Shown here piece by piece: positions 8,170-58,303 of a stretch of 64,000 nucleotides of DNA. The notes below the pieces were generated by a model. The model was not told the origin of the DNA, searched no databases, and was given only the letters and a program-made list of their open reading frames with translations. The DNA is from Streptomyces sp. NBC_00539 (lineage in GTDB: Bacteria; Actinomycetota; Actinomycetes; Streptomycetales; Streptomycetaceae), in assembly GCF_036346105.1 (NCBI RefSeq), contig NZ_CP107811.1, positions 4,793,501 to 4,857,500 on the forward strand. Reading direction: 5' to 3'. Both the position numbers and the translations under genes were made by a program. Position 1 is the stretch's first letter, and the number at the start of each line of letters is the position of its first letter.

Positions 8170-8216
8170 GCCGCCCGCCCGCGCGCCGCGCAGGCGTCAA
8201 CCCCGCACGCACGACA

Positions 8217-8242
8217 GCCCCGCCGGACGGTTCCGGCGGGGC
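8217..8242 (+). terminator. hairpin terminator after MFS gene
   Basis: Perfect 11-bp GC-rich stem with a 4-nt loop, 47 bp after the MFS stop codon. There is no U-tract, as is common in Streptomyces. Confidence 0.75.
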
Positions 8243-8368
8243 CGTCGCCTATCAGGGTGGACCCGTCCGCGGCCCCTTCCGTACGCACGTCACCGCAGGT
8301 CAGCGTGGGGTCGTCGGAGCTTCGGAAACGGTCCGGGGCCCGAGTCGTCCACAAGGAGTTGACCCGTC

Positions 8369-8764
8369 ATGCGTACGAGTACCCCCGTGCAGCCCAGCAC
8401 GTTCCTGGCCGCCGTCGCCCTGGCCGCGGCCGCCCTCATCCCGGGCACCGCCGGCCCCGCACACGCCGCCGGGCCACCGACGCTCGGGGCCTGCGCCACC
8501 GGACAGCTGTGCCTGTGGGCGAAGCCCGACTTCAAGGGCACCCGGCACACCTACGAGCTCAGCACCCTCGACATCAACAGCTGCACCGCGCTGCCCGCCG
8601 GGACCAGCGCCCAGGCCCTCACCAACCGGACCGGCCGCCCGGTGACCACGTACCAGTCGGCCGAGTGCCAGGAGACGGGAGAGTTCCAGACGTACCCGGG
8701 CGACGGCGTCTGGCTCCCGCAGTCGCCCTACCAGGTGCGGGCGTTCAAGGTCTGGGAGCGCTGA
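8369..8764 (+). CDS. secreted peptidase inhibitor, family I36
   Basis: 131 residues. A Sec signal peptide with hydrophobic core TFLAAVALAAAALIPGTAG is followed by AxA-type cleavage at AHAAG. The mature part of about 100 residues has four cysteines and the beta-gamma-crystallin-like pattern ATGQLCLWAKPDFKG, as in the Streptomyces metalloproteinase inhibitor SMPI (MEROPS I36). It probably protects the cell or its secreted proteins from metalloproteases. A good AAGGAG ribosome site precedes the ATG at 8369. Its 3' end overlaps the convergent potassium-channel gene by 20 bp. Confidence 0.85.
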   Translation: MRTSTPVQPSTFLAAVALAAAALIPGTAGPAHAAGPPTLGACATGQLCLWAKPDFKGTRHTYELSTLDINSCTALPAGTSAQALTNRTGRPVTTYQSAECQETGEFQTYPGDGVWLPQSPYQVRAFKVWER

Positions 8765-9611
8765 CGGGCTCCCCGGGGAGAAGTTCCCCGTCCGCCGCCC
8801 CGTCCGCCGCCCCGGCGCGGTCCTCCCGCGCCGGGGCGGCGCCCGGGCCCGGACCCGGACCCGGACCCGGCTCCGGCCCCGGGCCGGCCGCGCCGCCGAG
8901 GCGGGCGACTTCGGCGCGCAGCGCCCGTACCTCCCGCGCCAGTTCGGCGATCGCGGCGGTCTGCGCCCGCTCCACCTGGTCGTCGCGTTCGAACCGGGAG
9001 ATGAACCAGGCGGCGATGTTGGCGGTGACCACACCCAGCAGCGCGATGCCCGACAGCATCAGCCCGACCGCCAGCAGCCGCCCCAGCCCGGTGGTGGGGG
9101 AGTGGTCCCCGTACCCGACCGTCGTCATGGTGGTCACCGACCACCACAGCGCGTCCCCGAGGCTCTTGATGTTGCCGCCGGGCGCGTCCCGCTCCACGCT
9201 CAGCACCGCCAGCGAGCCGAACATCAGCAGCCCCACCACCGCGCCCGCCACGTACGTGGTCAGCCGGACCTGCGGCGCCATCCGGGCGCGCCGGCCCACC
9301 AGCAGCAGCGTCGACACCAGCCGCAGCAGCCGCAGCGGCTGGATCATCGGCACCAGTACCGCCGCCAGGTCCAGCCAGTGGCCCCGTACGAACGCCTTCC
9401 GCGACGGCGACAGGCCCAGCCGCACCAGGTAGTCGGCGGCGAAGGCGCCCCACACCACCCACTCGGCGTGCGTGCACGCCCGGTGCACCGCGGGGCTGGC
9501 GTCCGGGGCCACGATCGGCACGGCGTACGCGACGGCGAACGCCACGGCGAGCACGAGCAGCGGGGTCTGGCTCCGCCGCTCCCACCGGGCCTGGCGGGAG
9601 GGTTCCTTCAT
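8745..9611 (-). CDS. voltage-gated-type potassium channel
   Basis: 288-residue integral membrane protein of the Kv superfamily. The pore loop contains the K+ selectivity filter TVGYGD at residues 164-169. An S4-like amphipathic segment (LRLLRLVSTLLLVGRRAR, about 93-110) carries regularly spaced arginines, and a C-terminal coiled coil (about 215-245) ending in a Gly/Pro-rich tail may mediate tetramerisation. ATG 9611 is preceded on the minus strand by TACCAT at 6 nt and no Shine-Dalgarno, so a leaderless message is likely. The end overlaps the I36 gene by 20 bp in convergent orientation. Confidence 0.92.
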   Translation of the reverse strand: MKEPSRQARWERRSQTPLLVLAVAFAVAYAVPIVAPDASPAVHRACTHAEWVVWGAFAADYLVRLGLSPSRKAFVRGHWLDLAAVLVPMIQPLRLLRLVSTLLLVGRRARMAPQVRLTTYVAGAVVGLLMFGSLAVLSVERDAPGGNIKSLGDALWWSVTTMTTVGYGDHSPTTGLGRLLAVGLMLSGIALLGVVTANIAAWFISRFERDDQVERAQTAAIAELAREVRALRAEVARLGGAAGPGPEPGPGPGPGPGAAPAREDRAGAADGAADGELLPGEPVSAPRP

Positions 9612-9617
9612 GCCAGC

Positions 9618-9623
9618 ATGGTA
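9618..9623 (-). promoter_or_regulatory. -10 hexamer of the potassium channel gene
   Basis: TACCAT on the minus strand, six nucleotides before the ATG at 9611. No clear -35 is seen. Confidence 0.4.
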
Positions 9624-9635
9624 AAGAACGAGTAA

Positions 9636-9665
9636 GGGGCGCTGGGACAACCGTCCCAACGCCCC
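9636..9665 (-). terminator. terminator of aceE
   Basis: 13-bp stem with one mismatch and a 4-nt loop, beginning 17 bp after the aceE stop codon on the minus strand. It also lies just upstream of the potassium channel start, insulating that gene. Confidence 0.6.
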
Positions 9666-9681
9666 CTCGCACGAGTGACCC

Positions 9682-12414
9682 CTACGCGTCGCCGCCCGCC
9701 GCGCCCGGATCGGCCGCCGCGACGTCCAGCAGCTGGTACCGGTCGATCGCCTGCTTGAGCACCGAACGGTCGATCCGGCCCGCCTTGGCGAGCTCGGTCA
9801 GCACGGCCAGCACCACCGACTGCGCGTCGATGTGGAAGAACCGGCGGGCCGCGCCACGGGTGTCCGCGAAACCGAAGCCGTCGGCGCCGAGCGAGGTGTA
9901 CGGGCCGGGGATCCAGCGCGAGATCTGGTCCGGCACCGACCGCATCCAGTCCGAGACCGCCACGAACGGCCCCTCGGAGCCCGAGAGCTTGCGCGTCACG
10001 TACGGGACGCGCTGCTCCTCCTCCGGGTGGAGCAGGTTGTGCTCCTCCACCTCCACGGCCTCGCGGCGCAGCTCGTTCCAGGAGGTCGCCGACCAGACGT
10101 CCGCCTTCACGTTCCACTCCGCGGCCAGGATCCGCTGCGCCTCCAGCGCCCACGGCACGGCTACGCCGGAGGCCATGATCTGCGCCCCGACGCTGCCCTC
10201 GGTGCCCGCCGACACCCGGTGGATGCCCTTGAGGATGCCGTCGACGTCGACGTCGGCCGGCTCGGCCGGGTGCTGGATCGGCTCGTTGTAGACGGTGAGG
10301 TAGTAGAAGACGTCCTCGGAGTCGGCGCCGTACATGCGCCGCAGACCGTCCTTGACGATGTGCGCGATCTCGTACCCGTACGCCGGGTCGTAGGCCACGC
10401 AGCCCGGGTTGGTCGACGCCAGCAGCTGGGAGTGACCGTCGGCGTGCTGGAGACCCTCACCCGTGAGGGTGGTCCGCCCCGCCGTCGCGCCGAGGACGAA
10501 ACCGCGCGCCAGCTGGTCGGCCATCTGCCAGAACTGGTCACCGGTGCGCTGGAAACCGAACATCGAGTAGAAGACGTAGACCGGGATCAGCGGCTCGCCG
10601 TGCGTCGCGTACGCCGAACCCGCCGCGATCAGCGAGGCCGTGCAGCCCGCCTCGGAGATGCCGTCGTGCAGCATCTGGCCGGTCGGCGACTCCTTGTAGG
10701 CGAGCAGCAGCTCGCGGTCGACCGCCTCGTACTGCTGCCCCAGCGGGTTGTAGATCTTGGCGCTCGGGAAGAAGGCGTCCATGCCGAAGGTGCGGTACTC
10801 GTCGGGGGCGATCAGCACGAACCGCTTGCCGATCTCCTTGTCGCGCATCAGGTCCTTCAAGATGCGCACGAACGCCATCGTCGTCGCGATCGACTGGTGT
10901 CCCGAGCCCTTCTTGGCCGCCGCGTACGCCGAGTCGTCGGGCAGCTGGAGCGGCTTGGCGCGCACCACCCGGGTCGGCACGTAGCCGCCGTGGGCGTTGC
11001 GCTGGTCGTGCATGTACTGGATCTCGGGGGAGTTGCGGCCCGGGTGGTAGTACGGCGGGGCGCCGCTCTCGAGCTGCGCGTCCGTGATCGGGATGTGCAG
11101 GCGGTCGCGGAAGCGCTTGAGGTCGTCGACCGTCAGCTTCTTCATCTGGTGCGTCGCGTTGCGGCCCTCGAAGTTCGGGCCCAGCGTCCAGCCCTTGACC
11201 GTCTGCGCCAGGATCACCGTCGGCTGGCCCTTGTGGGCCTTGGCTGCCGCGTACGCCGCGTACACCTTCTTGTGGTCGTGGCCGCCGCGCCCCAGGTGCT
11301 GGATCTGCTGGTCGGACATGTTCTCGACCATCGCGCGCAGCCGCTGGTCGCCGCCGAAGAAGTGCTCACGGATGTACGCGCCGGACTCGGTGGCGTACGT
11401 CTGGAACTGCCCGTCGGGGGTGGAGTTCATCTTGTTGACCAGGATGCCGTCGCGGTCCTGGGCCAGCAGCGGGTCCCAGGAGCGGTCCCAGATCAGCTTG
11501 ATGACGTTCCAGCCGGCGCCCCGGAAGATCGACTCCAGCTCCTGGATGATCTTGCCGTTGCCGCGGACCGGGCCGTCGAGGCGCTGGAGGTTGCAGTTCA
11601 CGACGAACGTCAGGTTGTCCAGACCCTCGCGCGCCGCGATGGACAGCTGGCCCAGCGACTCCGGTTCGTCCATCTCGCCGTCACCGAGGTACGCCCAAAC
11701 GTGGGACTTGGAGGTGTCCGCGATCCCGCGCGCCTCCATGTACCGGTTCATCCGCGCCTGGTAGATCGCACCCAGCGGGCCCAGGCCCATCGAGACGGTC
11801 GGGAATTCCCAGAAGTCCGGCATCAGCCGCGGGTGCGGGTAGCTGGACAGCCCGTACGGGGCCTTCGACTTCTCCTGGCGGAACGCGTCGAGCTGCTGCT
11901 CGGAGAGCCGGTCCAGGAGGTAGGCGCGGGCGTAGATGCCGGGGGAGGCGTGACCCTGGAAGAAGATCTGGTCGCCGCCGTCGCCCTCGTCCTTGCCGCG
12001 GAAGAAGTGGTTGAAGCCCACGTCGTAGAGGGAGGCGGAGGAGGCGAAGGTCGCGATGTGACCGCCGACGCCGATCCCGGGACGCTGGGCGCGCGAGACC
12101 ATGACGGCAGCGTTCCACCGGGTCGCGTTGAGGACCTTGCGCTCGATCTCCTCGTTCCCGGGGAAGAAGGGCTCGTCCTTGGTGGCGATCGTGTTGACGT
12201 AGTCCGTGCTGCGCATCTCGGGCACGGCCACGCGCTTCTCGCGGGCCCGCTCGATCAGTCGCAGCATGAGGTAACGGGCACGTTCACGGCCGCGCTCGTC
12301 AACGGCCGCGTCAAGGGAGTCGAGCCACTCCTGCGTCTCTTCCGGATCGAAGTCCGGGACCTGGCTCGGCAGGCCGCCAATAATGATCGGATTGCGATCG
12401 GATGCGGAAGCCAC
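9682..12414 (-). CDS. aceE: pyruvate dehydrogenase E1, homodimeric type
   Basis: 910 residues, the usual length of AceE. It decarboxylates pyruvate with thiamine diphosphate and acetylates the E2 lipoyl group in the pyruvate dehydrogenase complex. The ThDP/Mg site GDGEMDE is at residues 244-250, with the downstream asparagine in [31 protein letters not shown] and [20 protein letters not shown] are AceE signature stretches. GTG at 12414 was chosen because the family N-terminus [17 protein letters not shown] begins there and AGGAACAGC lies just upstream. Actinomycete AceE partners with dihydrolipoamide acyltransferases encoded elsewhere; none is here. The gene is monocistronic with its own terminator. 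Confidence 0.97.
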
Positions 12415-12863
12415 GCTGTTCCTTCGCTGTCGGGGGAGTCGTGCCTTGGGGTCGCCGCCTCCCATGGTCTTACGCTCGGCCGAAATCTTCACCTCTACCA
12501 CTGGGTAACCCCTGGAAAGTCTGGGCACCGCGGGTGGAGCGGGGAGAAGGGACGTCCGAGCGGGTCCGGCCGGACCGCCACCTTACGCCCCTGTGGATCA
12601 ACCCCTTCGTAAAGCCGTTCGTCCCTCAAACAGGTGGGAAGTCCCGAGCGATGCCGAATGAGGCGGAATGGTGTGGGATGAATCACCACAGGCCCGTACG
12701 GGCAGGCTCAAAGTTGCGGCGAGACGGCCGCAATCGTCACCGTTTCGACGGTCTCGGCGGCCGGGTACTTGCGCGATCCGCCGCGCCCGTGTGGACTACG
12801 CCCAATGCTGCGCGTACGCGCGCCGCCGAAAGACATTCACCGAACATGAGCAGGAGGCACCCC
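12415..12863. other. 449-bp divergent intergenic region aceE / DUF3052 gene
   Basis: No ORF with coding character. It must hold the aceE promoter (minus) and that of the DUF3052 gene (plus). I see no perfect operator palindrome and no riboswitch. The stretch is less GC-rich than the flanking genes, consistent with a regulatory region. Confidence 0.5.
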
Positions 12864-47097: not shown

Positions 47098-47502
47098 TTA
47101 GTACCAGTGGTGCGACTGCCAGAAGTTCCAGGCGCCCACGGGGCTGCCGTAGCGGGAGTTCATGTAGTCCAGGCCCCACTTGATCTGGGTGGCCGGGTTC
47201 GTCTTCCAGTCGGAGCCCGCGGAAGCCATCTTCGAGGCCGGCAGGGCCTGGACCAGGCCGTACGCGCCGGAAGAGGCGTTCGTGGCGGTGTGGTTCCAGC
47301 CACTCTCGCGGGACACGATCTGGTTGAAGGCCGCGAACTGCGCCGGGTCCTTGATCATCTGGCGCGCGATGGCCTTGGCGTCCATCGGGGCCGCCTGGGC
47401 GGGAACCGTGGCGAGCATGGAGCCGGCGACGCCCAGGGCGAGGACGGAGCCCGCGAGGGTCTTCTTGGTGGCGGCGATGCGGCGGATGACGGCGTTGGAC
47501 AC
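47098..47502 (-). CDS. secreted lytic transglycosylase-like protein
   Basis: 134 residues from GTG 47502, with GGAAGG nine bases upstream. Signal peptide (TLAGSVLALGVAGSMLATV, cleavage near AQAAP). The mature 90 residues hold a short SLT/lysozyme-like domain: catalytic Glu in IVSRESGWNHTATN, then SGAYGLVQALPASKM and WGLDYMNSRYGSPVGAWNFWQ, the family's end. It probably cleaves peptidoglycan during growth or germination. A long upstream region (47503-47891) with several hairpins suggests post-transcriptional control. Confidence 0.9.
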   Translation of the reverse strand: MSNAVIRRIAATKKTLAGSVLALGVAGSMLATVPAQAAPMDAKAIARQMIKDPAQFAAFNQIVSRESGWNHTATNASSGAYGLVQALPASKMASAGSDWKTNPATQIKWGLDYMNSRYGSPVGAWNFWQSHHWY

Positions 47503-47891
47503 GGAGGGAACCTTCCGAAGGGGACAAGGGCGGTCGCTGCATGCCGAAGACATGCGTGAGCCACTCACGCAAAGGAGAGGGGTTCGTCAGGCGGGGGGTG
47601 GGAACCCCTGCCGCCGTGGCGACATCACCCAGTTAGCCAGGTCCGGGCAGCCCTGGCAACGACCCCTGTTACTAGGCACTTTCATAGCGGGCCCCCTGTG
47701 ACCCGGGTGCGCTCCGGCAGGGGTCCGCGCAGGTCAGGGCGGGTTTTGCGGGGGTCGAACGGGGGCCCGGGAGGCTACTAAAGAGCGCCGTATGTGACGT
47801 GGGTCCTGTGGGCCGCCTCACCCCGAAAGGGCCCGGATCTCACGCTGTGTGACCGGGCGTGCAACGAAATAGGGTGTGGTCGGGGCCACTT
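47503..47891. other. 389-bp leader region of the SLT gene
   Basis: No ORF. On the minus strand it contains several possible hairpins (for example GCGTGAG/CTCACGC near 47551-47569). The ECF S-component gene ends at its far side. No riboswitch class was assigned. Confidence 0.5.
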
Positions 47892-48698
47892 TCAACGCAT
47901 ATCGAAGCAAATCGGGGCATCGAACGCTGCTTTCCGCGTCGCCCGGCGGAGCGCTTTCAGCAGGGTCGTGCCGAGCGCGAGCGTCAGTACGACGGTCAGG
48001 GCGGCCCGGCCGAGGTCCCAGCCGACCGAGGTGGCGAGGCAGTACGCGAGGAAACGGGCCAGGTTCGCCGGCACCGGGTCGCCCGGGTGGAAGGAGATGC
48101 CCTGGCCCATGCCCTGGAGCAGCACCCAGCCCTGCAGGTTCATGACCGTGCCGTAGGCGAACGAGCCCACGCACCCGTACGCCGCGAGCATCCACACCTC
48201 GGCCCGCCCCCGGATCCGGCCGGGCCCCGGAAGCAGCCCGGCGCCCAGCGAGAACCAGCCCAGCGCCAGCATCTGGAACGGCATCCACGGCCCCACACCG
48301 CCCGTGAGCAGCGCGGACGCGAACATCGTCACGGAGCCGAGGACGAAACCGAAACCGGGACCCAGGACGCGGCCGCTGAGCACCATCAGGAAGAACATGG
48401 GCTCCAGGCCGGCCGTACCGGCGCCCAGCGGTCGCAGCGCGGCGCCCACCGCGGCCAGCACGCCCAGCATGGCGACGGCCTTGGAGTCCATCCCCTGGTC
48501 GGCGATCGTGGCGACGACCACCGCAACCAGCAGCGGCAGGAGCGCCGCGAAGAGCCAGGGGGCGTCCTGGGAGTGGGAGAGGCCGGAGCGGCCGTCGGCG
48601 AGCAGGGGCCAGCCGAAGGCGGCGATGCCGATGAGGGTGACGAGGGTCAGCGCGGCGGCGGCGCGGGGCCCGAGGGGCAGGGGGCGGGCGGCGGTCAT
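47892..48698 (-). CDS. ECF transporter S component (probable cobalamin)
   Basis: 268 residues, about six membrane helices. ECF S-component fold with substrate-loop residues in GWPLLADGRSGLSHSQDAPWL, AVGAALRPLGAGTAGLEPMFFLMV and GWDLGRAALT. It is the last gene of the operon headed by a cobalamin riboswitch and overlaps the A component by four bases (ATGA), so cobalamin or a precursor is the likely substrate, as for CbrT-type S components. The substrate assignment is inferred from the riboswitch, not from binding residues. Confidence 0.87.
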   Translation of the reverse strand: MTAARPLPLGPRAAAALTLVTLIGIAAFGWPLLADGRSGLSHSQDAPWLFAALLPLLVAVVVATIADQGMDSKAVAMLGVLAAVGAALRPLGAGTAGLEPMFFLMVLSGRVLGPGFGFVLGSVTMFASALLTGGVGPWMPFQMLALGWFSLGAGLLPGPGRIRGRAEVWMLAAYGCVGSFAYGTVMNLQGWVLLQGMGQGISFHPGDPVPANLARFLAYCLATSVGWDLGRAALTVVLTLALGTTLLKALRRATRKAAFDAPICFDMR

Positions 48699-50824
48699 GA
48701 GGGGCGGCCCTCCGGGGCCGTGGAGGCCTTTGCCGAAGGCTCCGGCGGCGGGGACAGGGCGGCGGCGACCTGGGACACCGTGAGCCAGTGGCCGGGCGCC
48801 AGGACCTTGGCCACCTGCGGGGCGAAGGCGGGGGAGGAGACGACCACCTCGGCGGTCGGGCCGTCGGCGACGACCTCCCCGCCGGCCAGGACCACCACGC
48901 GGTGGGCCAGCTCGGCGGCGAGCTCGACGTCATGGGTGGCCAGGATGATGGCGCGGCCGTCGGCGGCCAGGGCGCGCAGGAGCTCGACCAGTCGCGCCTT
49001 GGCGGCGTAGTCGAGGCCGCGGGTCGGCTCGTCGAGCAGCAGCAGGGCCGGTTCGCCGGTCAGGACCAAGGCGAGGGCCAGGACCAGGCGCTGGCCCTCG
49101 GACAGGTCGCGGGGGTGGGTGTCGTCGGCGACGCCGGGGAGGAGGGAGGTGACGAGGGCGCGGCAGGTGCCGGGGGCGGCGCCCGCGTCCGAGTCGGCGG
49201 CGGCGCACTCGGCGGCGACGGTGTCGGCGTACAGGAGGTCACGGGGGTCCTGCGGGACGAGCGCGACACGGCGGATCATCTGCGGGGGTGGCGTGCGGTG
49301 GGGGGTGAGGCCGCCGACGAGCACCTCGCCGGTGGTGGGGGCGAGGGTGCCGGCGAGGGCGGCGAGGAGGGTGGACTTGCCGGCGCCGTTGCGGCCCATG
49401 AGGGCGATGGTTTCGCCGGGGGTGACGGTGAGGGTGATGTCGTGGAGGACCTCGGCGCGGGCGCGGCGCAGGGTGAGGTGGGTGACCCGGGCCGGTTGCT
49501 CCGCCGGTTGCTCCGCCGGTTGCTCCGCGGGTTTCGTGGCGGGGTCGCGTCGGCGGAGGCGGGCCCAGAGGGAGGTGTGCGGCGCCGTCGCGCGAGCGGC
49601 CCCGGCTGCGCCGGGCTGTGCGGGGCTCCGCCCCGCGCCCCGCGCCTCAAACGCCGGCGGGGCTGGAAAACCGGCCTCGCGCGCCGGCGGGGCTGGAAAA
49701 CCGGCTTCGCGCGCCGGCGGGGTGGGAGAACCGGCCTCGCGCGCCGGCGGGGCTGGAAAACCGGCCTCGCGCGCCGGCGGGGTGGGAGAACCGGCTTCGG
49801 GCGCCGGCGGGGTGGGAGAACCGGCTTCGGGTGTCGGCGGGGTGGGGGAACCGGTGTCGCGCGCCGGCGGGGCCGGGTGGGGGTGGGTCGGAAGCTGCGC
49901 CCCGGGCATCGGCGGGGTGGGAGAACCGGCCTCGGGCGTCCGCGGGGCCGGAAAACCGGTCACGAGGGCCGGGTGAAGCGTAGGTGCGGCCGGGGTAGGG
50001 GGCGGTGCCGCTGCGAGGCGGGCTTTGAGGGGGGCGGCGAGGCGGCGGGCGTCGCGGACGGAGAGCGGGAGCGGGGACCAGCCCGCGAGACGGCCGAGGG
50101 AGACGACCGGGGGGTGGACCGGGGAGACCGCCATGATCTCGGCCGGGCTGCCGAGGACGGGGGCCGCGCCCGGTGCGGCGAGGAGCAGCACGCGGTCGGC
50201 GTACTGCACCACCCGCTCCAGGCGGTGCTCCGCCATCAGCACCGTCGTGCCGAGGTCGTGCACCAGGCGCTGCAGGACCGCCAGCACCTCCTCCGCCGCC
50301 CCCGGGTCCAGCGCGGACGTCGGCTCGTCCAGCACCAGCACGCGCGGGTGCGGGGTGAGCACCGACCCGATCGCGACCCGCTGCCGCTGACCGCCCGACA
50401 GGGTGGCCAAGGGCCGGTCCCGCAGCTCGTTCAGGCCCAGCAGGTCCAGCGTCTCCTCCACCCGACGCCGCATCACCGCAGGTGGCAGCCCCAGCGACTC
50501 CATCCCGTAGGCCAGCTCGTCCTCCACCACGTCCGTCACGAAGTGGGCCGCCGGGTCCTGCCCGACCGTGCCCACCACGTCCGCGAGCTCCCGCGGCCGG
50601 TGCGTGCGCGTGTCCCGTCCCGCAACGGTGACCCGCCCCCGCAGCCGGCCGCCCGTGAAGTGCGGGACCAACCCGCAGACGGCACCCAGCAGCGTCGACT
50701 TGCCGACTCCCGACGGGCCGACCAGCAACGTCAGCTCGCCCTCCGGCACGGTGAAGTCCGCGTCCCGCAGCGCGGGGGCGCGGGCGCCCTCGTAGGTGAC
50801 CGAGACCTGCTCGAACCGGATCAC
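48695..50824 (-). CDS. ECF transporter ATPase, fused A1-A2
   Basis: 709 residues from GTG 50824 (GTGA overlap with the T gene). Two ABC ATPase units in one chain: first Walker A GPSGVGKST (36-44), signature LSGGQRQ, Walker B VLVLDEPTSALD; second Walker A GRNGAGKST, signature LSEGQRL, Walker B LLLLDEPTRGLD. They drive uptake with the T and S components. Between them, about residues 260-450, is an abnormal linker of decapeptide-like repeats (AREAGFPAPP / AGSPTPP) encoded by tandem ~30-bp units and a copy of a common Streptomyces intergenic repeat. A flexible tether is expected; an insertion origin is likely. Confidence 0.92.
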   Translation of the reverse strand: MIRFEQVSVTYEGARAPALRDADFTVPEGELTLLVGPSGVGKSTLLGAVCGLVPHFTGGRLRGRVTVAGRDTRTHRPRELADVVGTVGQDPAAHFVTDVVEDELAYGMESLGLPPAVMRRRVEETLDLLGLNELRDRPLATLSGGQRQRVAIGSVLTPHPRVLVLDEPTSALDPGAAEEVLAVLQRLVHDLGTTVLMAEHRLERVVQYADRVLLLAAPGAAPVLGSPAEIMAVSPVHPPVVSLGRLAGWSPLPLSVRDARRLAAPLKARLAAAPPPTPAAPTLHPALVTGFPAPRTPEAGSPTPPMPGAQLPTHPHPAPPARDTGSPTPPTPEAGSPTPPAPEAGSPTPPAREAGFPAPPAREAGSPTPPAREAGFPAPPAREAGFPAPPAFEARGAGRSPAQPGAAGAARATAPHTSLWARLRRRDPATKPAEQPAEQPAEQPARVTHLTLRRARAEVLHDITLTVTPGETIALMGRNGAGKSTLLAALAGTLAPTTGEVLVGGLTPHRTPPPQMIRRVALVPQDPRDLLYADTVAAECAAADSDAGAAPGTCRALVTSLLPGVADDTHPRDLSEGQRLVLALALVLTGEPALLLLDEPTRGLDYAAKARLVELLRALAADGRAIILATHDVELAAELAHRVVVLAGGEVVADGPTAEVVVSSPAFAPQVAKVLAPGHWLTVSQVAAALSPPPEPSAKASTAPEGRPS
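49620..49960. repeat. ~30-bp tandem repeats and Streptomyces-type GC palindrome inside ECF ATPase gene
   Basis: From 49620 the element GGGGCTCCGCCCCGCGCCCC...CTCAAACGCCGGCGGGG, known to me as a frequent intergenic repeat of Streptomyces, leads into at least eight units of CGCCGGCGGGG(C/T)(T/G)GG(A/G)(A/G)AACCGG. The units keep the reading frame. Confidence 0.75.
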
Positions 50825-52053
50825 AGCGACGACGCCTCCTTCGGCGGTACGGGTGCCACGAGGGCGGGGAGCAGCCCGATGAGGATCGCCGCCGCGGGCC
50901 ACAGCGGCAGCGCCGGGGCGACCAGCGGCACCACCCCCGGGCGCAGGCCCTGCGGGTCCGCCGCCCCGGCGTAGGCGAGCAGGGCCGCCACCGCCGCGCC
51001 CGACCCGGCGACCAGCCAGGCCCGGCCGCCCCACCGGTCGGGCCGGTACCGGGTGCGGACGCTGCGCCGGCCGCCCAGGCGCAGTCCGGCCAGGGCCAGG
51101 GCGAGGCCCATCAGGAGGACGGGCAGGCCGAACACGGCGCCCTCCGCCGCGAGCAGCCCGTACGTTCCGGCGCACATGCCGAGGAGTCCGCCGAGGGTGA
51201 GCGCGCTGGTGGTGCGGCGCACGGCGGGCGGGACCTGCGCGGTGCGGCCGTACCCCCGCGCGTCCATGGAGGCGGCCACCGCCACCGAGCGCTCCAGGGC
51301 GCCCTCCAGTACCGGCAGGCCGATCTGCAGGACGGCCTTCACCCCGCCGGTGGGGCGCCCGCGCAGCCGGCGGGCGGTGCGCAGGCGGGCCACGTCGGCC
51401 ACCATGTTGGGCGCGAAGGTCATCGCGACGACCACGGCCACGCCCGCCTCGTACAGGGCGGCGGGCAGCGACTTGAGCAGCCGGGCCGGGTTCGCGAGCG
51501 CGTTCGCGGCGCCGACGCACACCAGCAGGGTGGCGAGCTTCGCGCCGTCGTAAAAGGCGAAGACCAGCTGCTCGGCGCTGACGCGACCGCCGAGACGGAT
51601 GCCCTGCGCCCATGCGGGCAGGGCGACCTCCGGGAGGGTCACGAGGGTGTGCGCGCCGGGGACGGGCGAGCCGAGCAGGGTGGAGAAGACCAGGCGCAGG
51701 CCGATGACGACGAGCCCGAGCCGCAGGAACGCGCCGTAGGAGCGCGCCCAGGGCGCGGCGGTGCGGCGGGCGGCGACGACGTAACCGGCGACGGCGACGA
51801 TCAGCCCGAGCAGGAGCGGGTTGGTGGTGCGCGAGGCGGCGGTCGCGAGCCCGAGCGCCCACACCCACCAGGCCCCTGCGTGCAGGGCGTTGCCCCGACG
51901 TGCCTCGGGAGCCCTGCCCAAGCCCCTTGCGTCGTACGCCGGCACGCGCGACCCCTCACCGGCCCCGCCCGGACCGTCCCCGGCCGGGGCCAGGTGGCCG
52001 GGTGCGGCGCCGTGCGGGGTGTCCGTGCGCGGGGCCCGCGGGAGCGGCGTCAT
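50821..52053 (-). CDS. ECF transporter transmembrane T component
   Basis: 410 residues. The first 55 residues are a Pro/Gly-rich cytosolic extension, then five to seven membrane helices. The T-component coupling motif is seen as AASMDARGYGR (the ARG box in the SMDARGYG loop) preceded by ARLRTARRLRGRPTGGVKAVL. It links the ATPases to the S component. ATGA overlap with the SCO2322 gene upstream and GTGA overlap with the ATPase gene downstream show tight translational coupling. Confidence 0.9.
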   Translation of the reverse strand: MTPLPRAPRTDTPHGAAPGHLAPAGDGPGGAGEGSRVPAYDARGLGRAPEARRGNALHAGAWWVWALGLATAASRTTNPLLLGLIVAVAGYVVAARRTAAPWARSYGAFLRLGLVVIGLRLVFSTLLGSPVPGAHTLVTLPEVALPAWAQGIRLGGRVSAEQLVFAFYDGAKLATLLVCVGAANALANPARLLKSLPAALYEAGVAVVVAMTFAPNMVADVARLRTARRLRGRPTGGVKAVLQIGLPVLEGALERSVAVAASMDARGYGRTAQVPPAVRRTTSALTLGGLLGMCAGTYGLLAAEGAVFGLPVLLMGLALALAGLRLGGRRSVRTRYRPDRWGGRAWLVAGSGAAVAALLAYAGAADPQGLRPGVVPLVAPALPLWPAAAILIGLLPALVAPVPPKEASSL

Positions 52054-52691
52054 CGGGAGCGGCGGCGGGACTGCCAGACGCCGGCCGCCGCGAGGGCGGC
52101 TACCGCCGCGGTACCCGCGAGCAGGCCCGCCGAGGGACCGCCGTCACCGCCCGGGGCGGCCTTCGGCTCCTGCCGCGCGCCCTCCGCGAGCGGCTCCCCG
52201 CAGCCCTGCCCCGGGTAGCCGGAGATCGCGCACAGCAGCGCCGCGCTGTTGTAGCGCAGCGGCTTCGCCACCGAAGCCAGCGCCTCGGCGGTCATGGCGT
52301 CCGGGGCCACCTGCGCGCAGGCGGTGCGCGGTCCGGCCTGCGGCGGGGTCTCACCGGAGGGCGAGTCCTGCGGGAGCCCGAAGTCGATGACCAGGGCCAC
52401 CCGCTTCTTGCCCTCCACCGCCGGGGTGCCCGCGCAGACCGCCGCGAAGTCGGCGTCGGCCCGCGGCCGGGACGCCCGGTCCCCGGCGTCCTTGCTCACC
52501 GCGAAGCGGAAGCCCTCGACGGTTCCGTCCGCCGGACGGGCCGCCGTCCCCTGGGTGGCGTACGTCCAGGGGCCCTTCGCGCCGCCGTCCCAGAACGACC
52601 AGTAGCGGTAGCTCGACGCCAGCGCCGGGGACGCGGCCAGGAGGGTGAGGAGGACGCCGAGGGCGGCGGCGAAAACGGGCAGCCGGCGCAT
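52050..52691 (-). CDS. SCO2322-family surface protein
   Basis: 213 residues. Signal peptide (FAAALGVLLTLLAASPALA). Mature domain begins SYRYWSFWDGGAKGPWTYA, a strand-rich segment with aromatic residues, and has four or more cysteines (AVCAG, TACAQV, LLCAI and GCGEP). A C-terminal membrane helix (GLLAGTAAVAALAAAGVWQ) followed by SRRRSR anchors it outside. It is known only as the SCO2322 family. The TGATG overlap with the preceding barrel protein gene and its place in the B12 operon suggest it helps bind cobalamin at the surface; its small beta domain could correspond to the DUF4430-like half of intrinsic factor. That is inference. Confidence 0.85.
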   Translation of the reverse strand: MRRLPVFAAALGVLLTLLAASPALASSYRYWSFWDGGAKGPWTYATQGTAARPADGTVEGFRFAVSKDAGDRASRPRADADFAAVCAGTPAVEGKKRVALVIDFGLPQDSPSGETPPQAGPRTACAQVAPDAMTAEALASVAKPLRYNSAALLCAISGYPGQGCGEPLAEGARQEPKAAPGGDGGPSAGLLAGTAAVAALAAAGVWQSRRRSR

Positions 52692-53923
52692 CAGACCTGG
52701 TTCTTCTTCCGGCGGCCGCTCAGCAGGAAGCCGATGCCGACGCCCGCCGCGGCGCCCGCGCCGATCATCCAGCCGATGTTGCCGGAGCCGTCCTCGTCCT
52801 TGTCACGTGCGGGCATGGCGCCCGTCGCCGGCGTCTGCGGGGCCGGGCCCGTCGCGTTCAGCGCCGCGATCAGGTCGGTGCCGCCGAAGGCCCGCGGGTC
52901 GGTGCCCGTCGCGTGTGCGGTGAGGACCAGGGTGCCCAGCGCCGCCGGGTTGCCCTTGGCCCACTGCGCCGAGTTGCCCTTGAGCCACTCCAGCGCGCCC
53001 GCCGCCGACTGCTTGTGGCCGGCCGCGGCCAGGGCGATGACGGCGTCGGCGGTGTTGCCGGTGTCGGGGGTGGGCTGGTCGGCGCCCGGGGTGGCGGCCG
53101 TCAAGTGGCCGTCCTTCTTGAGGGCTTCGGCCAGGTACCCGGCCGCGCCCTCGGCGGCGGCCGCGGGGTCGGGTGCGCCCGCCGGGCAGGCCGGGGCGGC
53201 CGCGGGGGTGTCCGTGGAGGCCGGGGCGACGACGGCGCCCTTGCCGAGGCCGGCCAGGGTCGCGGCGGCCGTCGCGTCGGCGTTGGCGGGGAGCTTGCCG
53301 TCGGTCGGCTGGTACCCGAAGGCACCCCGGTCGGAGGCCGGTTCGGCGTCGCAGCCCAGCCGGAAGGAAAGCAGGCCGTCGTACGCGGACTTGCCCGCCT
53401 TCGACGTGACGTCGGCCGGCTTCTCGCCCGCCACGGCCAGCGCGCTGATGACGACGGAGGTGGAACTCGCCTCGCTCGGGGAGCCCGGGACGTACGCCCA
53501 GCCGCCGTCCTCGTTCTGGACGGACTTGAGCCAGTCCACGCCCTTCTTGACCTGGGCGTCGTGGCCGCCGAGCGCCTTGAGTGCCTGCACGGCCACCGCG
53601 GTGGCGTTGGTGTCCAGCGGCGTCGCCGGGTCGCACGCCTTCGTCGCGTCCGCGCGGAAGGAGGCGAAGCCGCCGTCGGCGCACTGCTGGCCGCTGAGCC
53701 AGGCGATGGCCTGCGGGGCGGGGCGCAGACCGACCGTGTGCTGGGCGAGCAGGGCGAACGACTGGCGCCAGACACCGTCGTAGGTGGGGTCGGCCTGGCC
53801 GAACAGACCGGAGGGGATCACCGGCGCCGGGGAGGGGGAGGGGGCGGCGAGTGCGGCGGGAGCGGCGCCCAGGCAGAGCACGGCGGAGGCGGCGAGCGCG
53901 GCTGCGCTGCGGCGGACGTTCAT
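52691..53923 (-). CDS. surface-anchored prenyltransferase-repeat (alpha-alpha barrel) protein
   Basis: 410 residues. Signal peptide (AALAASAVLCLGAAPAALA). Residues about 50-360 contain prenyltransferase/squalene-cyclase-type alpha-helical repeats, e.g. AIAWLSGQQCADGGFASF, GVDWLKSVQNEDGGWAYV and AGALEWLKGNSAQWAKGN. This is the alpha6/alpha6-barrel fold shared by terpene cyclases and the N-terminal domain of vertebrate intrinsic factor/transcobalamin; no catalytic DxDD motif is seen. The chain ends in a membrane helix (IGWMIGAGAAAGVGIGFLL) and GRRKKNQV. First gene after the cobalamin riboswitch. It is most likely a surface cobalamin binder. Confidence 0.87.
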   Translation of the reverse strand: MNVRRSAAALAASAVLCLGAAPAALAAPSPSPAPVIPSGLFGQADPTYDGVWRQSFALLAQHTVGLRPAPQAIAWLSGQQCADGGFASFRADATKACDPATPLDTNATAVAVQALKALGGHDAQVKKGVDWLKSVQNEDGGWAYVPGSPSEASSTSVVISALAVAGEKPADVTSKAGKSAYDGLLSFRLGCDAEPASDRGAFGYQPTDGKLPANADATAAATLAGLGKGAVVAPASTDTPAAAPACPAGAPDPAAAAEGAAGYLAEALKKDGHLTAATPGADQPTPDTGNTADAVIALAAAGHKQSAAGALEWLKGNSAQWAKGNPAALGTLVLTAHATGTDPRAFGGTDLIAALNATGPAPQTPATGAMPARDKDEDGSGNIGWMIGAGAAAGVGIGFLLSGRRKKNQV

Positions 53924-54004
53924 GGCGGGGCGGGTGCCTCTCGTGCTGGGGGAGCGGGGGCAGGCACACGCGGGTACCGGGCTCCGGCTCCGTATTCCTC
54001 GACG

Positions 54005-54153
54005 GTGCCGGCCGCCGGGGGCCCGGCGGCACGAGCCGCGCACTCCCGGCGGGGCATCCCGGCTTCCCGCCCCCGGCGGCGCCGGTGCGGGTCACGGTTG
54101 CGGGTCAGCGCCGGATTCGCACCGGCTTGCCCCCGTACGGAAGTGTGGACGAC
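54005..54153 (-). ncRNA. cobalamin riboswitch
   Basis: On the minus strand, from about 54153 downwards: CGTACGGGGGCAAGCCGGTG, CGAATCCGGCGCTGACCCGC and AACCGTGACCCG, which match the B12-riboswitch core (GGTGnnAATCC, then CTGnCCCGCAACnGT). Further down GGGAAGCCGGGATGCC is the usual 3' part, ending in a strong GC hairpin at 54011-54030. TACAGT at 54160-54165 is the likely -10. It controls the barrel-protein/ECF operon. Confidence 0.88.
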
Positions 54154-54159
54154 GGCCTT

Positions 54160-54165
54160 ACTGTA
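54160..54165 (-). promoter_or_regulatory. -10 hexamer of the B12 uptake operon
   Basis: TACAGT on the minus strand, placing the transcript start just before the riboswitch aptamer. Confidence 0.45.
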
Positions 54166-54298: not shown

Positions 54299-55351
54299 TC
54301 ACACCGCCCGGTACGTCACCGGGTCCGTGCCCGGCACCGCTTCCGCCCTGCCCTGTTTCACCAGCCGCCGCAGGTGCGCTTCGGCTTCGGAGACCGCGAT
54401 GTTCCGGGACCCGTACGGGATCTGCTCCCAGGGCCGGTTCCACTGCATCCGCTCGGCGAGCCCCCACGGGGTCAGCGGCTCGGCGAGCAGCTCCCGGAGC
54501 CCGTCCAGCCGTTCCTCGTGGTGTGCCAGCAGCTCCCGCACCCGGGCCGGGGCGTCGGTGAAGGGGTGCTGGTGGGCGGGGAGCACCTCGGCCGGGCGGA
54601 GGCGGCCGACGCGTTCGAGGGAGTCGAGGTAGTCCCCGAGCGGATCGGTGACCCGCTCGTCCTGCGGGTTCTCGTACAGCCCGATGTGCGGGGAGATGCC
54701 GGGCAGGAGGTGGTCCCCGGAGAAGAGGCGGCCGTTGCCGGGGAGGTCCGCCGGGTGGGCCTCCTCCAGGTGCAGGCAGACGTGGCCGGGGGTGTGGCCG
54801 GGGGTCCAGATCGCGCGCAGCCTCCGCCCGGCGAGGGGCAGCAGCTCGCCGGGGACGATCTCCCGGTCGGGGACGGCGGCCCGCAGCCCGGGCAGGGTCC
54901 GCATCCGGCCGCTCGCCCGGGCCGCCCGCAGCGGGGCGATGTGCTCCTCGGGGGCGCCGGCGGTGACCAGCTTCTCGCTCATGTAGTCGAACCAGACGCC
55001 CGGTTCGGCGGACCGGGTCCGTACGACGACTTCGGTGTCGGCGGCGTGCATCGCGATCCAGGCGCCCGACGCCTCCCGGACCCGCCCCGACAGGCCGTGG
55101 TGGTCGGGGTGGTGGTGGGTGATGACCACGCCGTGGAGGCCGGTGACGGGGATGCCGAACGCGGCGAGGCCGGCCACCAGGGTGTCCCAGGAGTCGGGGT
55201 CGTCCCAGCCGGTGTCGATCAGGACGGGCCCGCGGTCGGTGTCGAGGACGTGGACGAGCGTGTGCCCGAGCGGGTTGTCGGGGATGGGGACCTTGATGCT
55301 CCGCACGCCTCCGCCGTGGTCGGTGACCTGAGGTGGGGCGAGGGGCGTCAT
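54299..55351 (-). CDS. MBL-fold metallo-hydrolase
   Basis: 350 residues from ATG 55351, with CTGGAG upstream. Metallo-beta-lactamase fold with the metal motif THHHPDHHG (about 82-90), the second-sphere histidine in WTPGHTPGHVCLHL, the aspartate in LFSGDHLLPG and a terminal LPAHQHPF. After the core, a C-terminal winged-helix-like region (EAEAHLRRLVKQGRAEAV) is typical of glyoxalase-II-like or acyl-CoA/thioester hydrolases of this branch. A KstR-like site lies in its promoter, so it may act as a thioesterase in the steroid set. Divergent from the aldehyde dehydrogenase. Confidence 0.88.
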   Translation of the reverse strand: MTPLAPPQVTDHGGGVRSIKVPIPDNPLGHTLVHVLDTDRGPVLIDTGWDDPDSWDTLVAGLAAFGIPVTGLHGVVITHHHPDHHGLSGRVREASGAWIAMHAADTEVVVRTRSAEPGVWFDYMSEKLVTAGAPEEHIAPLRAARASGRMRTLPGLRAAVPDREIVPGELLPLAGRRLRAIWTPGHTPGHVCLHLEEAHPADLPGNGRLFSGDHLLPGISPHIGLYENPQDERVTDPLGDYLDSLERVGRLRPAEVLPAHQHPFTDAPARVRELLAHHEERLDGLRELLAEPLTPWGLAERMQWNRPWEQIPYGSRNIAVSEAEAHLRRLVKQGRAEAVPGTDPVTYRAV

Positions 55352-57275: not shown

Positions 57276-58303
57276 GGGCGGGGCTTCGGGGGGCGGGGTT
57301 TCGGGGGGCGGGGTGTCGGCCGGGGTGCTCGGCCCGCTGGGCGGGGCCGGGGGGCGGGGTGTCGGCCGGGGTGCTCGGCCCGCTGGGCGGGGGTTGCGGG
57401 GGCGGGGTTTCGGCCGGGGTGCTCGGCCTGCCGGGCGGGGTTGCGGGGGCGGGGTGTACACCGGACGGGATCAGAGAGGGCATGGGGGGTTCCCGTCAGT
57501 CCGATCGTCTCTCCGCGTCGGGCCGGTCCCTCAAGGGCGCTCCTTCGTCGCGTCGCTTCGCGATGGCCTTCGGCCACCCTTGACCGACCGGCCCGCCACG
57601 GATCAACGAAGACTGCCGGGAACCCCCCAAGAGAACGATCACCGGGCAGAGACCCGGAGGAGCGGCCACGTCAGCGATCCGAGGCGGGGTCCCCGCGCAT
57701 CAGATCGCTACGCGCTCCTCCCGTCCCGGCGTCCGCAGACCGTCTGGGGCTGGACATAGGCTGCCAATTCGGGCATGTGGTGCGGGCGGTGGGCGTCTGC
57801 GGGCGGTGAAGGGCTCTTGTCGGAGTCTGATGCCGGATTTCTCCACCTCAGGCTCCGACAGGAGGCCGGGCGGCCCGCAGTCGCAGTCCGGGGCGGCTGG
57901 AGGGGGCCGTGGGCGGCCTATGTCCAGCCCAAGACGGTCCGGAGACGCTGGGACGGGGGGAGCGCGTAGCGATCTGGCGCGGTATCCAGGAGTGGGGCCC
58001 CTGCAGCTGTGAGGGGGATGGGCAGAAAGCAGGCACCGGCCCGTTCCTCTGGGGGTTTCCCGTCAGTCTTCGTTGATCCGTGGCGGGCCGGTCGGTCAAG
58101 GGTGGCCGAAGGCCATCGCGAAGCGACGCGAGCGCAGCGAGCGCCCTTGAGGGACCGGGCCGACGCGGAGAGACGATCGGACTGACGGGAAACCCCCATG
58201 CCGTCTCTGAGCCGGTCCGGTGAACACCCCGCCCCCGCAACCCCGCCCGGCGGGGCGAGCACCCCGGCCGAAACCCCGCTCCCGCCCCCCGCCTACGACG
58301 CGT
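57276..58303. repeat. 1-kb repeat region with large inverted repeat
   Basis: No gene. Left part: three tandem copies of a ~40-bp unit based on GGCCGGGGTGCTCGGCC (57316-57440). An outer inverted repeat of about 225 bp follows: about 57400-57627 against 58050-58290, over 90% identical by eye (e.g. CCCGTCAGTCCGATCGTCTC on the left, its inverse on the right). An inner arm pair lies at about 57701-57775 and 57914-57977. The spacer between them is about 140 bp. It separates the convergent ferredoxin and KstR-like genes. Confidence 0.85.

Follow-up and report, generated by a model that had tools for sequence, protein, structure and literature searches.

What do two surface proteins of the SCO2321 and SCO2322 families do beside a transporter, and how do they relate to the vertebrate cobalamin carriers? 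The question is raised by an operon of Streptomyces sp. NBC_00539, which we describe from the minus strand of a 64,000-nt stretch (the window). Its five genes follow the core of a cobalamin riboswitch in the order SCO2321-type alpha/alpha toroid, SCO2322, and the T component, fused ATPases A1-A2 (AA) and S component of an energy-coupling factor (ECF) transporter. Our answer is that this is probably a riboswitch-controlled operon for the import of a corrinoid, most likely cobalamin, in which permuted, surface-anchored proteins capture the ligand between a toroid and a beta-grasp domain for uptake by the ECF transporter.

Chain order of the two surface proteins

Judged by profile comparison and a structure model, SCO2322 looks like a circularly permuted beta-grasp (SLBB) domain of the transcobalamin type. 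The window protein (52050..52691, minus strand, as for all operon features below) matches NF040672 at 202 bits (cut-off 85) and GPS-CTERM at 33 bits (cut-off 28), and hydropathy places hydrophobic stretches at residues 1-28 and, before Arg/Lys, 187-206, the putative signal peptide and C-terminal membrane anchor. Searches with the family profile found matches in 54 of 396 genomes across the phylum, 13 of them over the cut-off, and in 162 of 394 genomes at class level (135 over the cut-off); a plasmid search with SCO2322 gave no match. In four of the weaker matches (G390, G366, G134 and G284) the profile aligns as two pieces with its second half first, and the motif order differs: the G134 protein reads VAVVVD...C...GYP...YWSYW...GDIEGWRF, whereas SCO2322 reads YRYWSFW...VEGFRF...KRVALVIDFG...GYPGQGC. 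Rotating the SCO2322 profile (22 rows, after L130 and L132 were dropped from a 24-row alignment) at columns 54-66 raised its hhalign score against 24 canonical domains (alignment A5, which omits the out-of-frame rows L134 and L135) from 96.8 over 47 columns to 171 over 109 columns; the best of 20 column shuffles reached 20.1 and the reversed profile 15.5. Pairwise scores rose on rotation for all six of the 24 sequences compared, with rises of 77 to 108 and, at the upper end, 95 to 174, and with 82 to 97 as the least.

The swapped profile matches and the model divide the protein into half A (residues 27-66, 52494..52613), which would correspond to the C-terminal half of canonical homologues, and half B (residues 95-167, 52191..52409), which would correspond to their N-terminal half. 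Between them lies the seam (residues 81-93, 52413..52451), the best rotation point, where the old C-terminus would run into the old N-terminus. The AlphaFold model was built on a 63-sequence alignment (predicted local distance difference test, pLDDT, 91.2; predicted template modelling score, pTM, 0.86), and its residue 1 is protein residue 24. In model numbering, strands at 4-12, 20-21 and 34-43 would supply S3-S4-S5 of half A, while strands at 73-80 and 99-105, a helix at 111-118 and short strands at 122-124 and 130-133 would supply S1-S2, helix and insert of half B. All elements of a transcobalamin-type SLBB domain can be assigned, S4 as two residues, by reading of the model and with no coordinates superposed, and their order, S3-S4-S5-S1-S2-H-insert, would be a rotation of the reference order S1 S2 H eee S3 S4 S5 given in the accessible text of PMC1949818. 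SCO2322 departs from the canonical N-to-C element order and, as a circularly permuted protein, is therefore proposed as a permuted variant rather than a canonical SLBB member; the same text describes a permuted beta-grasp in another branch, the E1 UFD domain (PMC1949818). Invariant in all 63 rows are, among others, R6, Y7, W8 and W11 of the first strand, W19, P137 and four cysteines. Neither SCO2322 nor the canonical SLBB profiles gave a meaningful match when searched against the sequences of the PDB.

The first protein of the operon (52691..53923) matches the SCO2321 family (NF053823, 562 bits, cut-off 300) and has hydrophobic stretches by hydropathy at residues 6-29 and, before Arg/Lys, 383-403, again a putative signal peptide and C-terminal anchor. 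It is predicted to adopt the alpha/alpha toroid fold of its superfamily, with terpene cyclases, epimerases, glycosidases, prenyltransferases and complement fragments among its best 50 of 591 structural matches. Toroid profile searches returned squalene-hopene cyclase, complement C3/C4 and prenyltransferases, with no transcobalamin among the matches listed (in one case the best 60 of 67). PF01122, the eukaryotic cobalamin-binding protein family, gave no match to the window toroid at E 1, and in related loci only L089 (E 0.0059) and L087 (E 0.26), both under the cut-off. By the same kind of comparison, this toroid too is apparently circularly permuted relative to its homologues: rotation at a linker (about residues 234-249, 53177..53224), the point of best match to canonical-order toroids, gave a profile score of 427 over 271 aligned columns, against 327 over 176 columns before rotation and at most 17.6 in 10 shuffles, the canonical toroid sets of 22 and 25 members having been selected by swapped order. 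The alignments behind the structure models hold 62 of 75 SCO2322 and 62 of 77 toroid references, each with the window sequence added. Minus-strand toroid-like matches in Streptomyces loci, covering about one repeat at E about 1e-5 or 1e-6 (12 rows shown), were set aside.

The order of one protein tracks that of the other. Among the 36 loci of the L071-L151 set with both proteins, 16 combine an SCO2321-order toroid with a permuted SCO2322 (L146 of these is cut by a contig end) and 20 combine a shifted toroid with a canonical SLBB domain; no arrangement is mixed. Fourteen of the 20 canonical calls were made from a match to half A alone together with sequence reading in A5, and L077, which a script flagged as permuted because of a tandem pair of canonical domains, is counted as canonical. 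A further 80 named loci, from Streptomyces, Nanopelagicales, Micrococcales and other metagenome-assembled genomes (MAGs), form a second set in which 73 are concordant; because this set was found via the SCO2321-order toroid, it is no independent test of the pairing. Two operon-bearing MAG contigs (L205 and L237) are labelled Bifidobacterium breve; their isolate names are similar to those of other MAG samples among the loci, and the assignment to that species looks doubtful to us. The canonical order is likely ancestral because it is common to DUF4430 domains. A tree built from T, AA and S of the window and 63 fetched loci, of which 14 were selected from the second set, requires three state changes; it neither establishes nor rules out that the permuted systems form a single clade (approximately unbiased test, p-AU 0.198).

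Single-chain arrangements occur as well. Toroid and SLBB domain are fused in L077, L078 and L089, and the L077 chain, which consists of a signal peptide, a toroid, two SLBB domains and CWB2 wall-binding repeats, is encoded upstream of a separate SLBB gene and the ECF genes; in L084 the toroid is joined to S-layer homology domains. From a tandem of SLBB domains, permutation by duplication and loss is a plausible route for the SLBB protein. Within the window's genus, canonical and permuted systems coexist in G171, where a DUF4430 protein lies just downstream of the canonical toroid. In G594, of the same genus, a permuted toroid-SCO2322 pair (L136, L137) stands without ECF genes across the 20 kb fetched and may have to borrow its importer; that genome carries a complete canonical system elsewhere and no CobJ over the cut-off. 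In L087 (G204) two successive canonical SLBB-toroid pairs precede one ECF set (8185-12561), with several riboswitch matches around. The probable permutation of SCO2322, the apparent one of the barrel and the single-chain toroid-SLBB proteins of related operons go beyond an earlier sequence-only reading of this locus.

The putative link of SCO2322 to transcobalamin is transitive, through the canonical domains and then DUF4430, because direct comparison stays at the level of shuffled profiles. The canonical domains align collinearly with DUF4430 at a score of 43 (best of 30 shuffles 15.9; E 6e-6), while Pfam's own DUF4430 model matches only 1 of 24 canonical domains (E 0.13). The DUF4430 profile in turn weakly matches the beta domain of human transcobalamin-1 (E 0.016, positions 12-96 of 100), and hhalign gives this pair a probability of 84%, with shuffled scores up to 14.3; a putative metal-binding protein outranks transcobalamin-1 in the search (E 0.011). 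Rotation and profile comparisons used 28 of 30 DUF4430 loci, and alignment A9 used 26.

Riboswitch, transporter and B12 supply

Upstream of the toroid gene, the first of the operon, positions 49-166 of the RF00174 model match at 54055..54128, 132 to 205 bases from the gene. In a focused scan this core scores 27.8 bits (E 3.5e-5), and a scan at the gathering score finds no RF00174 match in the window because 27.8 bits lies below Rfam's 31.5. Positional counterparts in relatives exceed the cut-off (G161, 40.9 bits; G352, 39.2; G369, 33.9), and a simple search for the core motif picked out 62 of the 77 leaders that precede related operons. In an alignment of 26 leaders (25 that passed the motif, and the window), 5 of 15 predicted pairs keep pairing with changes on both sides. 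The invariance of the core is partly built in, since leaders were selected by its motif; the two-sided changes in the variable stem are not, and pairing across relatives supports the aptamer core. At least 47 of 53 operon heads in 51 carrier genomes have a same-strand riboswitch match within 1.5 kb upstream among the matches listed; the heads without a listed match are those of G023, G107, G193, G594, G062 and G706, and the canonical systems of G171 and G594 are left out of the 53. With strict filters and E up to 0.05, 22 of the 51 genomes yield a single riboswitch match, and in every one of them it is the operon's. For S. lividans, the accessible text of a reannotation lists cobalamin riboswitches at two genes, cbiM and cobD (PMC8079986). 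On the operon strand, upstream of the window riboswitch, lies a Strvi_7410-family hydrolase of the metallo-beta-lactamase (MBL) fold (54299-55348, 675 bits).

The five genes overlap successively, from toroid to S, by 1, 4, 4 and 4 bases, and would share one transcript. The T component (50821..52053, CbiQ-like) scores 21 bits against PF02361, under the cut-off of 25, and has same-place homologues in relatives; the fused A1-A2 protein (48695..50824) contains two ABC_tran stretches and reaches 287 bits with TIGR04520 and TIGR04521, below their cut-offs of 315 and 330; the S component (47892..48698), the presumed corrinoid-binding subunit, scores 30.5 bits against PF12822 (ECF_trnsprt), just under 30.7. 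Although T and S thus fall below Pfam cut-offs, a T, two ATPases and an S are encoded together, as in ECF systems. The window's S component shares 43-72% identity with its homologues in 15 other systems of both the permuted and the canonical type, which argues for one substrate. The gene order, strand, overlapping stop and start codons and membrane anchors that the sequence-only reading had described are borne out, and its view of a riboswitch-associated ECF import operon is supported; the B12 riboswitch that it saw has a core that is present and recurs in relatives, but scores under the Rfam cut-off in the window.

Several further features adjoin. The A1-A2 linker contains a 30-base tandem repeat of 7.4 copies (49652-49873) encoding Pro/Ala-rich decapeptides. 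Just past the S gene, on the operon strand, 47098-47568 encodes a small protein with a signal-like start that resembles a transglycosylase and may be RpfA-like. Long inverted repeats (57391-57981 with 57912-58290; 152 nt at 93%, 90 nt at 94% and 70 nt at 87%) are centred near 57.84 kb, with GC-rich direct repeats adjoining.

The operon's likely role is the import of a corrinoid, which the B12 economy of carrier genomes favours. All 48 carriers examined have PF02310 B12-binding domains, and 13 have CobJ over the cut-off, leaving 35 with none. Of these 35, 15 have a FecCD/BtuC-type permease above 100 bits and 20 have no such match; among these 20, 6 pass the Pfam cut-off of 26.5 through partial matches that do not exceed 33 bits, and 14 fail it, several assemblies being incomplete. 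In the 20 genomes without a clear BtuC-type permease, the operon's importer is therefore the best candidate.

Proposed mechanism and rival accounts

From these observations we infer a mechanism in which low cobalamin would lead to expression of the operon. SCO2322 and, where present, SCO2321, anchored in the membrane, would then capture the corrinoid outside the cell and hold it between toroid and beta-grasp domain, as in transcobalamin. The captured corrinoid would be passed to the S component and imported by T and A1-A2 at the expense of ATP; in genomes that have lost the toroid, SCO2322 would offer the ligand to S by itself. More tentatively, and with slightly less than even confidence, the pair may be a two-chain, membrane-tethered bacterial intrinsic factor that hands its corrinoid to the ECF S component, its halves being permuted in step because both clamp one corrinoid.

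A number of results weigh against this interpretation. Compared directly with the transcobalamin-1 fragment, neither SCO2322, rotated or not, nor the canonical actinobacterial domains did better than shuffled profiles. Against DUF4430, rotation of SCO2322 moved the score only from 29.3 to 29.8, with aligned columns going from 41 to 72 and the probability from 45% to 64%. Searching the SCO2322 model against the PDB, part of the check that the sequence-only reading had proposed, gave no sequential match with Foldseek or VIA, which is not evidence of a new fold; a permuted chain may defeat a sequential search. Transcobalamin is not among the best 50 of 591 structural matches of the toroid, nor among the 50 entries of a second listing. 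The alpha-alpha barrel of the sequence-only reading is thus upheld as a predicted toroid fold, but without transcobalamin near the top of its matches, and the beta-domain counterpart that it saw in SCO2322 gains a rotated-profile chain to DUF4430 and transcobalamin-1 while lacking a direct transcobalamin match. Some PF02310 proteins may need no B12, and the window genome itself has CobJ and probably makes B12, so that the operon would serve salvage there. Lastly, an SCO2321-order toroid profile found no match in 13 of 20 whole genomes, and 10 of these 13 keep a permuted SCO2322 with T, AA and S; G671, also without a toroid match, has a canonical SLBB domain beside the same three ECF genes, and the sequence fetched for G467 and G635 contains SCO2322 with a partial T or none. 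The two-half module is therefore not obligatory, and the constant partner looks like the SLBB protein rather than the toroid. The co-occurrence of barrel, SCO2322 and ECF genes behind a riboswitch, which was to be surveyed, recurs, save in these ten genomes without a detected toroid.

Those ten genomes and G671 are what could favour SCO2322 as the sole surface partner that binds the corrinoid, with the toroid an optional accessory and no transcobalamin-like sandwich. We think this unlikely, though deserving of serious attention: toroid and SLBB genes adjoin in most fetched operons, the two are fused in some loci, permutation states are unmixed in all 36 loci, and the search profile, being of SCO2321 order, could miss a very divergent toroid. 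The paired permutation could itself be questioned, since toroids are built of similar helical hairpins and profiles can slip by one repeat, so that internal repeats out of register would mimic a rotation and SCO2322 alone would be truly permuted. However, a single rotation at one linker accounts for the gain in score and columns far above shuffles, every first-set toroid fits one of two orders, and the order tracks the SCO2322 state; we regard such an artefact as decidedly improbable.

Other accounts concern what is handled. Cobalamin riboswitches also control precursor salvage genes, and the substrate might be a corrinoid precursor or fragment, such as cobinamide or a lower ligand, rather than intact cobalamin. 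The accessible text of a review assigns roles of this kind to cbrUVT and cblTS (PMC8123684), but carriers that mostly lack CobJ over the cut-off and all have B12-binding domains fit uptake of a finished or nearly finished corrinoid, and we hold a precursor to be improbable. Highly improbable, in our judgement, is an enzymatic role for the toroid, similar to that of a terpene cyclase or a glycosidase, with its place in a B12-regulated operon due to chance. The families among its structural matches would suit an enzyme, whereas the DxDD motif of squalene-hopene cyclase reads D-T-N-S at its position in the toroid profile, the protein looks secreted and membrane-anchored, and its neighbourhood and riboswitch recur across the phylum. 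Capture by toroid and beta-grasp domain ahead of ECF import is the account that we consider probable.

Relation to known carriers and importers

Within the open-licence literature, we found nothing on SCO2322-SCO2325, no description of SCO2322 as an SLBB domain or of a paired permutation, and no permuted transcobalamin-type domain that we recognised among the matches listed (best 15 of 702); the name SCO2321 occurs in one paper, a study of peptide delivery. No other case of adjacent proteins whose chain orders have changed in concert is known to us. Under this interpretation, two actinobacterial families named by gene number only would have a testable function, and many actinobacteria that lack the tested B12 synthesis gene, among them some with genomes of 1.3 to 1.9 million bases, would have a likely means of B12 uptake. 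It would also add actinobacterial cases to what is known of intrinsic-factor-like proteins in bacteria.

Among bacterial systems, the closest are those of Burroughs et al. 2007, who, in the accessible text, assigned both bacterial surface proteins and the beta domain of transcobalamin to the SLBB superfamily, described toroid fusions and CbiO/CbiQ operons, and predicted toroid-SLBB-ECF scavenging of B12 elsewhere (PMC1796856). Like theirs, the present systems join secreted or anchored SLBB and toroid modules, there often fused, with a CbiO-like ATPase and a CbiQ-like membrane protein. They differ in having separate anchored chains, a probably permuted SCO2322 and an apparently permuted toroid, a place in Actinomycetota and a recurring riboswitch; that text mentions neither this operon nor the permutation (PMC1796856). 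In acI actinobacteria without cobalamin synthesis, an ECF module behind cobalamin or adenosylcobalamin (AdoCbl) riboswitches has been proposed as a cobalamin transporter; riboswitch and ECF module are shared, while surface proteins are unmentioned in the accessible text and the locus may be a different one (PMC5301498). ECF-CbrT of Lactobacillus delbrueckii is likewise an ECF-type cobalamin transporter, but uses a shared group II module, with no surface SLBB or toroid protein described in the accessible text (PMC5997447). The vertebrate carriers are single soluble chains in canonical order, and in our searches neither SCO2321 nor SCO2322 matched them directly in sequence, yet intrinsic factor, transcobalamin and haptocorrin likewise combine an alpha/alpha toroid with a small beta-grasp domain, and it is to this family that the weak match between DUF4430 and transcobalamin-1 points.

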